From Muribaculaceae bacterium (GTDB lineage Bacteria > Bacteroidota > Bacteroidia > Bacteroidales > Muribaculaceae), in the NCBI GenBank assembly GCA_017473615.1, contig JAFUKL010000005.1, positions 1 through 46,668 of the forward strand: a stretch of 46,668 nucleotides of DNA. Reading direction: 5' to 3'. Positions 34,309 through 46,668 of this stretch are shown one piece after another. Every line of letters begins with the position of its first letter. The stretch's first letter is position 1. The notes beneath the pieces were generated by a model. It was not told the origin of the DNA, did not search any database, and saw only the letters and a program-made list of their open reading frames with translations. The translations under genes were made by a program, and so were the position numbers.

Positions 34309-34506
34309 AGAATCTGTTTAAATTTTATTTCGAGATTATTTTAAGCAGTATTTTGGAATGTTTTTTTTCATCAAATTGTACAGATAATAGCGAGCTATTT
34401 CCAAGCGATTTGATAAAAAAGACAACCAAAAGAGTCTTAAAGAAGACTGAAACTTGTCCCAAGTAGAACTGTAATAAAAAATTCAAGAAAATTCAAAACA
34501 ACTTCT
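34309..34506. repeat. Copy 1 of a ~197-bp palindromic intergenic repeat
   Basis: This 198-base element starts AGAATCTGTTTAAATTTT and ends with AAAATTCAAAACAACTTCT. About nine of ten bases match the element at 44052-44248 in the same orientation. The centre holds an imperfect hairpin: ATCAAATTG and GATAATAGC on one side, GCTATTTCC and CGATTTGAT on the other. There is no open frame or ribosome-binding site inside. It fills the gap between DUF4421 and tsaD, and the tsaD promoter begins just after it. No clear target-site duplication is seen. Confidence 0.8.
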
Positions 34507-34539
34507 TAAAACAGGGTTCAAATATGTGCGACTTGGCGA

Positions 34540-42420: not shown

Positions 42421-42885
42421 TTATTTAAGTGTAATCTTGTCCTTTACTTCGGTACGCTCGCAATAATGGCATTTCAGCACCATGTTATCCCTGTCTATCA
42501 CATGAAAATGAGTACGCATAGGCTCATTGTTGGTGATGCACTTAGGATTACTGCACTTCACGATTCCGTAGATGTCGTCAGGCAAAGAAACCTTGCGTTT
42601 ATTCACCACCTCATAGTCTTTTATTTCATTGATTACAGCATTAGGAGCTATTATAGCTATACGGTTAAGTGTCGATTCGGGGAATGTCACATCGGCAACT
42701 TTTATGATACCTTTCCTGCCGTATTTCTTACTGTCAAGATTATTACCTATGGTAACACTGTTTTCAAGAGACTGGATTCCTAACAAATCTACTACCTTGA
42801 ACAACGAATCGCTTGGAATATGATCGATAACCGTGCCGTTCTCCAATGCTGCAACAGCAAGCTCCTTTTTCTTATTTTCATTCAT
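42421..42885 (-). CDS. pyrI: Aspartate carbamoyltransferase regulatory subunit
   Basis: From ATG 42885 the protein has 154 residues, the normal length. The start is fixed by AGGAGG 8 bases upstream; a longer frame from 42930 would run into pyrB and add 15 atypical residues. Residues 1-100 form the nucleotide effector domain ([18 protein letters not shown]). The zinc site is Cys111, Cys116, Cys139 and Cys142 (CSNPKC and CHYC). It binds CTP, UTP and ATP to adjust PyrB activity. The pyrB stop codon lies 14 bases upstream, overlapping the ribosome-binding site. Confidence 0.97.
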
Positions 42886-42899: not shown

Positions 42900-43817
42900 T
42901 TATTTTACGTCGATACCTAACACCTTGCATATAATTGCTTCACGAGCATAAAGCCCGTTCTGTGCCTGTTGGAAATAATAAGCCTTAGGATTAGCATCCA
43001 CATCGTAAGCGATTTCGTTCACGCGCGGCAGCGGGTGCAGAATACGCAGGTTCTCCTTGCTGTTGTCGAGCATTGAGTTGTGAAGATTATATAGATCTTT
43101 CACCCGCTCATATTCCAACAAGTCGGTAAAGCGTTCGCGTTGCACACGGGTCATATACAGAATATCGCTTTGGTTAATGATTTCCTCCGAGAAATCGGTC
43201 GATTCGTGATACTCTATGCCATGTTCCTCACAGAACAATTTGTATTCCACCGGCATCTGTAGTTCTTGGCACGCCACGAAGTTAAAAACCGGCTTAAAGT
43301 GATACATCGCCATGAGAAGCGAGTGTACGGTACGCCCGTATTTCAAGTCTCCCACCATAGTTATGGTAAGATTCTCAAGTGTGCCTTGCGTCTTGTATAT
43401 GGAATATAGATCAAGCATCGTCTGTGAAGGATGTTGGTTAGCTCCATCTCCGGCGTTGATGATAGGAACAGGCGAGAACTCGCTTGCATACCTTGCTGCG
43501 CCTTCAAGGTGATGGCGCATTATGATAAGGTCGGCATAATTAGCTACCATTCTTATGGTGTCGTGCATCGTTTCTCCCTTGGACGAACTCGTCGTGCTGG
43601 CATCGGAAAAACCTATAACACGTCCTCCCAATCTGTTTACGGCAGTCTCAAAACTCAATCGTGTGCGTGTGGACGGTTCAAAGAAAAGCGTAGCTACGAC
43701 TTTCCCTTCAAGCAGGCGCTGGTTAGGATTTTCTTCAAACTTACGAGCCTTTTCCAGCAGTTCAAGAATCTCCTCTTTTGTAAGGTCGGAGATTGAGACC
43801 AAACTCTCGTTGTTCAT
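42900..43817 (-). CDS. pyrB: Aspartate carbamoyltransferase catalytic subunit
   Basis: The 305-residue protein has the carbamoyl-phosphate site [11 protein letters not shown] (residues 49-59), the SSSKGET loop, the MRHHLEGAA segment and [10 protein letters not shown]. It joins carbamoyl phosphate and aspartate in the first committed step of pyrimidine synthesis. With pyrI it forms the allosteric class of ATCase. The start codon lies about 30 bases after a terminator-like hairpin that ends a short leader ORF, so expression is probably set by attenuation. Confidence 0.97.
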
Positions 43818-43846
43818 ATATGTATTGCTTTTATGTTTTAGTCAGT

Positions 43847-43894
43847 AAAAAACAAAGCCAATCAAAACACGCTTTAGGGGTTTAGATTGGCTTT
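43847..43894 (-). terminator. Attenuator: intrinsic terminator in the pyrB leader
   Basis: On the minus strand AAAGCCAATC (43894-43885) pairs perfectly with GATTGGCTTT (43863-43854) around a 21-base loop, followed by GTTTTTTACT. It lies upstream of pyrB and downstream of the only promoter-like signal, so it must be bypassed for pyrB to be made. The left arm is made up of the last codons of the leader ORF, whose stop TAA follows directly. Confidence 0.8.
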
Positions 43895-43989
43895 TTATGC
43901 TGCGCAATAGAGACACATATTTCATTTGCCTGCTCAGAAGAAACCGGCGTATGAGGGGAATATGCTCTATTGGAAAACTTCTTTGTCAT
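43882..43989 (-). CDS. Putative pyr leader peptide (35 codons, pyrL-like)
   Basis: ATG 43989 opens a 35-codon frame that ends at TAA 43884-43882. It begins MTKKFSNRAYSPHTPV and ends IAQHKKPI. Its last three codons are the left arm of the terminator before pyrB, and the stop is the first base triplet of the loop. A ribosome finishing this ORF close behind RNA polymerase would block the terminator. It has no run of a single amino acid codon, so it does not look like an amino acid attenuator; the layout matches E. coli pyrBI, where a 44-codon leader ORF runs into the attenuator and UTP sets polymerase speed. It could also be a chance frame. Confidence 0.6.
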   Translation of the reverse strand: MTKKFSNRAYSPHTPVSSEQANEICVSIAQHKKPI

Positions 43990-43996
43990 AACACTA

Positions 43997-44026
43997 CAAA
44001 GTTAGGCATTTTCCCGCAATATCGAA
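43997..44026 (-). promoter_or_regulatory. Promoter of the pyr operon
   Basis: The minus strand has TAACTTTG (44004-43997), a full TAnnTTTG match, with TTTC about 19 bases upstream as a partial -33 element. The leader ORF ATG begins 8 bases after the element, so its mRNA would have a leader of a few bases at most. Confidence 0.55.
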
Positions 44027-44051
44027 ATATTTACTTACGAAAAATAAAATT

Positions 44052-44248
44052 AGAATCTGTTTAAATTTTATTTCGAGATTATTTTAAGGAATATTTTGGA
44101 ATGGATTTTTTCATCAAATTGCGCAGATAATAGCGAGCTATTTTCAAGCGATTTGATAAAAAAGACAACCATAAGAGCCTTAAAGAATCCGAAACTTGTC
44201 TCAAGTAGAAGTGTAATAAAAATTTCAAGAAAATTTTAAACAGATTCT
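44052..44248. repeat. Copy 2 of the ~197-bp palindromic intergenic repeat
   Basis: The element has terminal inverted repeats: AGAATCTGTTTAAA at 44052 and its complement TTTAAACAGATTCT ending at 44248. The body is a long imperfect palindrome centred near 44140, with ATCAAATTGC and ATAATAGC facing GCTATTTTC and CGATTTGAT. About nine bases in ten match copy 1 (34309-34506) in the same direction. It lies just upstream of the pyr promoter and contains no gene. Confidence 0.85.
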
Positions 44249-44251
44249 TAT

Positions 44252-44287
44252 AAAAAAAACTGCGTTCCTCTAATTGGAAGAACGCAG
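44252..44287 (-). terminator. Intrinsic terminator of the beta-helix surface protein gene
   Basis: CTGCGTTC (44260-44267) pairs with GAACGCAG (44280-44287), with more pairing inside. On the minus strand a run of eight T (44252-44259) follows. Confidence 0.92.
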
Positions 44288-44313
44288 CCTTTGAGTGAGT
44301 TTAAATTAGTTTA

Positions 44314-46668
44314 TTAGTTTTCATCGCGAGGATATACCTTAAAGTCATTAGCACCTTCGATAGACCATTTTCCAACCGGAGCTACAGGATCTACGTCATC
44401 TGAACCTTTTGTAAATACAACGTGGTAGTTTTCAGCACCTCCCAAGTTTGTTGTTTCAAGTTTAACTGCGTATGTATAGTCTGCGTTTGTCATTTTTCGA
44501 GCAACAATAGGCAACTTACTGTTGATTGTGGTATTTGTTACTGTTAGGTTACAATTTCTTCCGTCACCATCACCACGCACACCATAAGCCTCAGAATTAA
44601 TTGTAGAGTTTTTTAGAACTGCCTCAGCTGTGTTACCGAAAGATACTCCGTTCTTACAGCCGTTCAATTCAGCACCATCAATTATTGCGGCCTTTTCATG
44701 GCTTTGGAATTGAGCAAGCGAGTGCATATTGGTTGCAGTACAACTGATTATATTAAAATCACCTTGTCCGGACGCCAATTTTACACCTACTGCAGTGTGA
44801 ACAGCTTCGCCTTTTGCTGTAAATGTACAATCTTCAACTGTCACGGCATCAGGATAACGAGAATAATCGCTAGTACCTGTATTAAAGCCATAAACAAACA
44901 CTTCACCATTAGTTGATGTTTCAAAATTTACGTTCTTAACAACTAATTCAGCATTTTGGTCACCTGAATTGCCATAAATGTTGATTGTTCCGTCATATTT
45001 CTTTTTGTCACCGTCGATTACAACTTTAACGTCTTTCTTTTCAGTAACGGTTACATCACCTGTGATGTTGTTAGCAAAAGTAAGTATATAGTTTCCTACC
45101 TCAGCCATGTTATCAAGTGCTGATTGCAAAGATTCTTTAGATACAACGATTTGTTTCACTTCAACGTTCTCAGCCACATTGCCTCTTGCTTTTCCGTCTA
45201 ATTGACGACCTACGATTTCACCTGCATTAGCTGCTTTAGGGAATTCGTTGTAAGAAGTTATAGTTTGGTCGATTGTAACAGTACCATTTGTTGCTTTATT
45301 AATCACCAGAGAACCTACACTGCTGAATTCTCCTACGATACCACCAAGCTCGCGATAACCTTTAATAGCAAAATTGTTTACAGTACAATTAGAAATACTA
45401 TAGAGAGAACCTTGGAAACCGACAATACCACCCACTTTATCACCGTTATCATATACGCCATTCTTGTCTAAATCGTCAGGAGTTGCAGTCAATTGTATAC
45501 CTTCAACTTTACAGCCACTGATATCACCTCCTCTATGGTATCCTACAATACCACCAACATAATGATTACCTTCTACTACCGCATTTTTCACTGTTACATC
45601 TTCCACTTCCACGTTACCATGCACGGAGAATCGAGACGAACCTACAACTACAGCTGTACCGCATGCTGAACCGGTATTAAGATTCTTAACAACTGCATTT
45701 TCAATAGTGAAGTTCTTAATTGTTGCGTAACCACTAATGCTAGCAAACAAACCTGCTGTTTGATATGCCGGAGCACCTGTCAAATCCACATATAAGTTAT
45801 AGATAGCATGTCCATTTCCATCGAAAGTTCCACAGAAATCGTGGTATACATCTCCAATCGGATTCCATGGCTTATTATCAAGGTGAAGATCTGATACAAG
45901 TTTTACAGTTTTTCTATCAAATGTATTACCGCCGTCAACTTGTTCTGCGACCCATGCAAGTTGAGCCGGTGTCTTGATTTCATATACGCCTTCTGCATTT
46001 GGTTGTACATCGTCTGCCACTGTACCATCCCATTGAGTAACGTTATAATCAGGTTCGTTGTAGATAGGATTGATTACTACGTTGAACACTGCACCAGAAG
46101 TAAGCAGATTACCTACGATGTTGGTGCGGTAGTTGCGTTGCATTGGCACGTTTGCCACAGGGATGTTGTTGTAAACGGTTTCACTCTTCACATCCATTGC
46201 CACGCCGTTGCTCATCATCTTTTCGGCAGGTACAAGCACGTAGTTCATCGACAACCAACGGTATTCTTCGTTTGTTCCGTCATTGTCGGCATCGCACTTC
46301 AATGTTTCGTTATCTCCTGATGGGATGTTAGCGAAAGCGAATGTTGCTGTTGTTTCGCCTTCTACTGAACCGTAGTATGTGTTCAACTGAGTGTAAACAC
46401 CCTGTACTGCAACCTGTGTCTGTACGGTACCTATTCCTGCACTTACGGCTTCAGCCCAATCGGCTGTTCCGAAGTTAATCTGTGCGAACGGACGGTACAA
46501 GGTTACATCCATATCAACAGAACCGGTCACCTTGTAGCTGTTTACTGCTGCATAGAAAGCATCGCGCAATTCATCGTTGCTTGTTGCTTTCTCGTATGAC
46601 ACCTTAATATGACGCATGTCGCTCACTGTGAAAGCGGCTGCATTAGCAGGCTGTGCCCAGAACACGAA
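44314..46668 (-). CDS. Surface protein with DUF6562-like N-terminal region and GLUG beta-helix (5' truncated by the window)
   Basis: The frame is open from the right edge of the window; 784 residues are visible and the true N-terminus, with any signal or lipobox, is missing. The first 205 residues (VTLYRPFAQINFGTADW, LVPAEKMMSN, VPMQRNYRTNIVGNLLTSG) match the DUF6562 family of Bacteroidales cell-surface and fimbrial-like proteins. A linker follows. Residues about 240-480 hold a beta-helix with three GLUG-like turns: GGIVGYHRGG, GGIVGFQGS and GGIVGEFSS. A second parallel beta-helix (about 500-740) is rich in Asn and Thr. It probably sits on the outer surface as an adhesin or polysaccharide-binding protein; the ligand is unknown. 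It ends with a strong terminator. Confidence 0.85.
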   Translation of the reverse strand, partial: FVFWAQPANAAAFTVSDMRHIKVSYEKATSNDELRDAFYAAVNSYKVTGSVDMDVTLYRPFAQINFGTADWAEAVSAGIGTVQTQVAVQGVYTQLNTYYGSVEGETTATFAFANIPSGDNETLKCDADNDGTNEEYRWLSMNYVLVPAEKMMSNGVAMDVKSETVYNNIPVANVPMQRNYRTNIVGNLLTSGAVFNVVINPIYNEPDYNVTQWDGTVADDVQPNAEGVYEIKTPAQLAWVAEQVDGGNTFDRKTVKLVSDLHLDNKPWNPIGDVYHDFCGTFDGNGHAIYNLYVDLTGAPAYQTAGLFASISGYATIKNFTIENAVVKNLNTGSACGTAVVVGSSRFSVHGNVEVEDVTVKNAVVEGNHYVGGIVGYHRGGDISGCKVEGIQLTATPDDLDKNGVYDNGDKVGGIVGFQGSLYSISNCTVNNFAIKGYRELGGIVGEFSSVGSLVINKATNGTVTIDQTITSYNEFPKAANAGEIVGRQLDGKARGNVAENVEVKQIVVSKESLQSALDNMAEVGNYILTFANNITGDVTVTEKKDVKVVIDGDKKKYDGTINIYGNSGDQNAELVVKNVNFETSTNGEVFVYGFNTGTSDYSRYPDAVTVEDCTFTAKGEAVHTAVGVKLASGQGDFNIISCTATNMHSLAQFQSHEKAAIIDGAELNGCKNGVSFGNTAEAVLKNSTINSEAYGVRGDGDGRNCNLTVTNTTINSKLPIVARKMTNADYTYAVKLETTNLGGAENYHVVFTKGSDDVDPVAPVGKWSIEGANDFKVYPRDEN

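Follow-up and report, generated by a model that had tools for sequence, protein, structure and literature searches.

The question raised by this locus is whether a Bacteroidota genome controls its pyrBI operon through a leader peptide and attenuator of the pyrL kind, as had been proposed from a reading of the sequence alone, and if so whether such a device was retained or evolved anew. The window, that is the whole stretch of 46,668 nucleotides that was analysed, belongs to a Muribaculaceae-type MAG, and the nearest named relative of its PyrB is that of Muribaculaceae bacterium RGIG893 (97%).

Organization of the region upstream of pyrBI

All features described here lie on the minus strand. 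The gene for the catalytic subunit of aspartate carbamoyltransferase, pyrB (42900..43817; Pfam PF02729 and PF00185), is followed by pyrI, which encodes the regulatory subunit (42421..42885; PF01948 and PF02748). The elements that the sequence-only reading had listed upstream of pyrB, namely the TAACTTTG box, a 35-codon ORF and a perfect 10-bp terminator with a T6 tract, are all present and exact to the base. The box (44004-43997) fits the -7 consensus TAnnTTTG of the Bacteroidota primary sigma factor (PMC7366714, PMC9723704) and is separated by seven bases from the ATG at 43989, which opens the leader ORF MTKKFSNRAYSPHTPVSSEQANEICVSIAQHKKPI (35 codons and TAA, 43882..43989; stop codon at 43884-43882). 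As the box occupies positions -12 to -5 relative to the transcription start in the data given for Flavobacterium psychrophilum (PMC9723704), transcription is predicted to begin at 43992 with a 5' UTR of 3 nt.

The attenuator hairpin (43854..43894) is formed by a left arm AAAGCCAATC (43894-43885) that pairs perfectly over 10 bp with the right arm GATTGGCTTT (43863-43854), followed by a G and the T6 tract (43847..43852). Its 50-nt fold has an energy of -15.6 kcal/mol (z -5.39); in relatives the stems are paired differently. It had been pointed out that the last codons of the ORF run into this structure, and indeed AAG-CCA-ATC supply nine of the ten left-arm bases with the TAA directly after them, the stop codon ending 13 nt into the hairpin. 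A gap of 29 bases then leads from the T6 tract to pyrB.

The combination of box, ATG, ORF and terminator occurs once in the window, which contains 54 boxes on both strands. The same arrangement also arose once in five single-strand shuffles of the window, a count that would suit an ordinary constitutive terminator overlapping a chance ORF. The lone locus is therefore by itself mildly surprising at most, and the case rests on relatives, which lift the arrangement above chance.

Recurrence of the leader among Bacteroidales

Used as a protein query against 198 genomes of the family, the 35-aa ORF retrieved its own locus and the leader of one genome of the same genus (G042; E 0.006); matches in 34 more genomes all had E values of 0.099 or worse. 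Since the leader peptide diverges too fast for protein search, related loci were found by anchoring on pyrB. This yielded 237 pyrB loci and, once repeats had been dropped by their last 110 nt, 199 distinct upstream regions. Of these, 52 were called leader-type by an automatic rule that looks for a TAnnTTTG box 75-230 nt 5' of a hairpin with a T tract. The rule called a further 108 'direct', a label meaning nothing more than a box at most 130 nt from pyrB and no qualifying leader, and placed 39 in neither class; it misses leaders that are visible by eye, such as L060 and L212.

By reading of the loci, leaders were identified in 11 of the 27 Muribaculaceae genus groups inspected (g1, g5, g6, g11, g18, g19, g23, g24, g25, g27 and g28), in some of these in part of the fetched genomes only. 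In the order sample outside Muribaculaceae they are present in 8 of 43 Bacteroidales family groups (17 of 67 loci), including those of the Barnesiella and Coprobacter records. Both tallies omit f3 loci that have a terminator but an ORF of only 6-8 codons (L219, L228). Among the loci fetched, no recognisable leader was seen in Bacteroides and Parabacteroides records or in 16 of the 27 Muribaculaceae genus groups. The three genomes of the window's own genus all have the layout, with TAACTTTGTAGTGTTATG identical in the three and the peptides diverged. The 147 genomes sampled outside Bacteroidales carry only distant PyrB proteins (at most 43% identity). The leader label, which was set by hand and scored L219 as 'no leader' though it carries the leader of L109, changes 10 times on a quickly built tree of 116 PyrB proteins compared with 33.5 times in shuffles, indicating that the leader is inherited with repeated loss or gain.

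In genus group g28, three relatives of the leader-bearing L035 (L036, L037 and L039) retain a similar box and the bases that follow it, and L037 and L039 retain the ATG as well. All three lack the terminator together with the greater part of the leader, a state that looks like loss of the attenuator.

The geometry of the leader recurs along with its parts. In 44 of the 52 leader-type loci an ORF starting at the first ATG 3' of the box extends as far as the terminator. Shuffles that keep this ATG but scramble the body give an expectation of 17.9 and a full shuffle one of 7.36; the remaining eight calls have no such ORF. In the 44 leaders the ORF ends between -9 and +99 nt relative to the first base of the left arm and passes through the entire hairpin in nine, and the ATG lies 2-10 nt 3' of the box in 37 and 5-10 nt in 36. 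After removal of ten loci (the eight without a reaching ORF, L109 with its 8 codons and the doubtful L257) and of four near-copies, 38 leaders were kept. A further set of loci contained a leader in 16 of 29 analysed (a count that leaves out L286, L289, L296 and L302), or 14 once two near-copies were dropped, and a box 25-64 nt 5' of pyrB in the other 13, of which L294 additionally has a far box. In all 14 further leaders the ATG is 7-9 nt 3' of the box and the ORF ends between -1 and +82 nt, passing through the whole hairpin in ten. Twelve of the 14 come from families already represented; two g18 loci supply the only new leader genus, and L287 and L288 share their genus with L243 and hence are not family-independent.

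The sequence-only reading had looked to the pyrB upstream regions of relatives for conservation of both ORF and terminator, and the two recur jointly, at a fixed spacing. Such recurrence upstream of pyrB across many genera and families contradicts a constitutive terminator with a chance ORF, the probability of which we regard as negligible. As the ATG mostly follows the box by 5-10 nt, the box position known from F. psychrophilum predicts 5' UTRs of 1-6 nt, so that the leader ORF is probably near-leaderless. In B. thetaiotaomicron 5' UTRs shorter than 10 nt are reported to be rare, about 3.7% (PMC7366714).

Codon signals in the leader ORF

Comparative codon signals of two kinds, a synonymous bias in one family and an enrichment of His codons in one frame only, indicate that the leader ORF is translated. 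In ungapped comparisons from the ATG, whose pairs are not independent, pN/pS in nine f109 leaders (the Barnesiella group) is 0.36 in frame but 1.30 and 0.86 in the two shifted ones, with 94, 105 and 195 differences at codon positions 1, 2 and 3; the window's leader compared with that of L033 from the same genus gives 0.42 against 1.17 and 0.77, over only 19 codons; and there is little or no constraint elsewhere (0.96 in g23, 1.47 for a g18 pair, and differences that are non-synonymous only in one f68 group). Pairs with the third member of the genus, L032, are weaker at 0.79 and 0.81, values obtained by amino-acid alignment, which is biased toward low ones. The synonymous bias that had been anticipated for the ORF was thus found in the f109 leaders and between the window and L033, with less of it towards L032 and a near-neutral g23.

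Purifying selection of this kind on the f109 leaders, together with peptide motifs that recur inside families, could also be read as the mark of a working small protein, or of a peptide that arrests as a nascent chain on sensing a pyrimidine compound and whose stall regulates the terminator. We consider this unlikely: no peptide sequence was seen to be common to different families, the g23 leaders are near-neutral, and a Pfam search of eight leaders gave nothing over the cut-off, the matches to YqgH and DUF3695 both lying below it and being disregarded.

In the 38 leaders CAY occurs 79 times in frame 0 compared with 47.6 expected, and 42 and 28 times in the other frames, where about 47 are expected. 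CATA occurs 26 times in frame 0 compared with 7.2, and at expectation in the other frames. A His codon lies within codons 4-20 in 36 of the 38 leaders, where shuffles give 20.7 (sd 2.5). The His bin, like the T bin used below, was picked after the first set, and the further set serves as the test of both. In the 14 further leaders in-frame CAY is again enriched (25 against 15.8, z 2.8), as is CATA (z 3.5); His within codons 4-20 is weakly repeated, in 11 of 14 leaders, where shuffles give 7.6 (sd 2.0) and at most 13. Five leaders (L086, L222, L275, L278 and L284) are without His in this stretch, and the window's own leader ORF has only two His and no codon run.

These in-frame signals are what would be expected if termination were decided by how the ribosome moves over the early His codons, or by the charging state in general, in which case pyrBI would answer to histidine or growth instead of or besides UTP. 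Against such amino-acid attenuation stand the composition of the window's ORF, the five leaders and the weak repetition just described, the stop codon in or near the terminator, which is not the arrangement that a published account gives for amino-acid attenuators (PMC4824070), and the lack of an antiterminator structure in both sets of leaders. Pairing of the left arm with upstream sequence does not exceed that of shuffles (mean z +0.16, sem 0.15, n 38), and none was detectable in the further set either (mean z +0.31, n 14). As the left arm has no upstream partner better than those in shuffles, nothing points to a trp-type switch, and amino-acid attenuation appears improbable. The claim of the sequence-only reading that the lack of a codon run argues against amino acid sensing has to be qualified by the enrichment of early in-frame His codons in the leaders, which could reflect a second, codon- or peptide-level input.

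Structure and base composition of the leader

Upstream of the terminator the leaders are rich in T. The T fraction 10-30 nt 5' of it is 0.332 against 0.259 (z 4.6) in the 38 leaders and 0.346 against 0.251 (z 3.9) in the 14 further leaders. In the window the corresponding stretch, a candidate UTP-sensitive slow zone, is 43905..43924, with T at 9 of 20 positions. Long T runs were not found in the 38 leaders (mean longest 3.55 against 3.39, sd 0.12, in shuffles); a long U tract before the terminator is not supported, and a diffuse U-rich zone remains.

The leaders also fold better than shuffles, with a mean z of -1.50 in the 38 leaders compared with -0.30 for pyrB and -0.29 for the flank, -1.69 in the further set and -2.06 for the window's own leader. 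In the window a stem-loop within the leader ORF (43899..43978), whose main stem pairs 43972-43960 with 43918-43905 and stops 10 nt short of the terminator, is a candidate pause or timing hairpin.

Folding of the leader would equally be expected if a PyrR-like protein, or a metabolite-binding RNA, controlled the terminator and the ORF were incidental. The PyrR model NF003549 is over its cut-off in none of 41 genomes and in 6 of 14 control genomes, and the source genome G000 (78% complete) has no match to it at E 0.001. No Rfam family reaches its gathering score anywhere in the window, and the eight matches of a loose search of 43780-44310 likewise stay below it (best E 0.067). Moreover, no antiterminator pairing was detected, and the ORF matters, as the in-frame codon signals show. 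Control by a protein or a riboswitch is therefore very unlikely.

An unbiased motif search returned the hexamer TTGTCG in L046, L047, L083, L100, L148, L165 and L166 (8 occurrences against 0.7 expected in the 38 leaders), in mixed frames and 18-75 nt 5' of the terminator. We set it aside as a leader motif because the flanks are enriched too (19 against 4.3) and the three leaders of the window's genus lack it; it is possibly a pause or binding site.

A proposed mechanism and its relation to known attenuators

Taken together, the comparisons suggest that pyrBI is probably governed by an attenuator of the pyrL kind, in which the ribosome controls transcription termination. Three features lead us to infer UTP as the signal: the identity of the operon itself, the U-rich stretch of the leader and the geometry. 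RNA polymerase would begin a few bases 5' of the leader AUG, and a ribosome would load at the 5' end of the transcript, or close to it, and trail the polymerase. The U-rich stretch and the leader stem-loop may hold up polymerase just 5' of the terminator, where the ribosome must catch up. At low UTP polymerase would lag and the ribosome close up, finishing the ORF inside the terminator (or beyond it in some relatives), so that the hairpin would be prevented and pyrBI transcribed; at high UTP polymerase would run ahead, the hairpin form and transcription end before pyrB. The geometry of the locus is that of such an attenuator, as the ORF overlaps the intrinsic terminator in such a way that a ribosome close to polymerase would keep it from forming.

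Work on E. coli offers a background for these steps. In the accounts given by one source (PMC4824070), moving the stop codon from 28 to 5 bp 5' of the terminator lowered termination from about 90% to less than 10%, terminators of amino-acid operons lie more than 20 bp past the leader gene and that of pyrBI inside it, and the ribosome rarely reaches RNA polymerase within the first 100 bp unless polymerase is detained at pause sites. The leader described here is short, about 105 nt, which counts against catch-up without pause sites. In E. coli pyrL the upstream hairpin is reportedly not what stabilises the pause (PMC9291695).

E. coli pyrL (b4246) resembles the window's leader on the same measures: it precedes the same operon, has a leader ORF of similar length and an intrinsic terminator overlapping it, shows no antiterminator (z +0.59) and has a U-rich segment before the terminator. 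It differs in several details. The E. coli segment contains a T5 tract, whereas the window's leader has none and its U-rich zone is diffuse; the E. coli ORF spans the whole hairpin, whereas that of the window stops inside it; the leader fold has a z of -1.18 compared with -2.06; and most Bacteroidales leaders, unlike pyrL, begin 1-6 nt from the predicted transcription start. None of eight leaders matches PF08052 (PyrBI_leader), which E. coli PyrL matches at 3e-34, and BLASTP gave no alignment between the window's ORF and PyrL. These searches place the leader outside the PyrL sequence family, and the differing details together with the lack of detectable homology make convergence likelier than retention. 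The view that the logic of E. coli pyrBI operates here, evolved or retained, is thus supported by the recurring geometry, the synonymous bias and the likeness to pyrL on the same measures, and its second option is unlikely.

Other precedents share single features. The amino-acid attenuators suggested in F. psychrophilum also combine a translated leader with a terminator in Bacteroidota; as described there they serve amino-acid operons, and the window's leader differs in having no codon run, no competing antiterminator and a terminator that overlaps the ORF (PMC9723704). In Sinorhizobium meliloti the trpL transcript is reported to start at the leader AUG, with the ORF at the very 5' end, in a trp operon of another phylum (PMC7298713). 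Open-licence PMC text yielded no paper on pyrL-type, pyrB, pyrimidine or leader-peptide attenuation, or on coupling, in Bacteroidota, Bacteroidales or Muribaculaceae.

More tentatively, the attenuator might take two inputs, RNA polymerase relaying UTP and the ribosome relaying a signal from the codons or the peptide. It would then be near-leaderless, independent of the enterobacterial one and dependent on its peptide sequence, the early His codons and the conserved N-terminal half setting or sensing the speed of the ribosome.

By sequence comparison the locus appears to carry a pyrL-like switch with an unrelated leader that recurs across Bacteroidales. If true, ribosome-RNA polymerase coupling works in a major gut phylum and, given no detectable homology, would have arisen at pyrBI at least twice. 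Shine-Dalgarno sequences are reported absent in Bacteroidota in one account (PMC9723704). A leader at the very 5' end would let the ribosome load at once, which would be a reason for a near-leaderless start. The locus would be a simple reporter for coupling in relatives of Barnesiella or Coprobacter.

Other features upstream of the promoter

Directly 5' of the pyrB promoter, at 44049-44251, lies an element of about 200 bp with imperfect terminal inverted repeats (AGAATCTGTTTAAA...), which is MITE-like. At least 42 matches to it were found in its own genome (40 of the 115 first-look candidates were scored), three in G021 of the same genus and none in G042. The window has a second copy at 34312-34508. 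The upstream gene has its own terminator at 44255..44292 on the minus strand (-21.2 kcal/mol, z -6.60). A large ORF upstream (44314-46665, minus strand) reaches the end of the contig and contains repeated GGIVG-type motifs; we presume that it encodes a surface protein.
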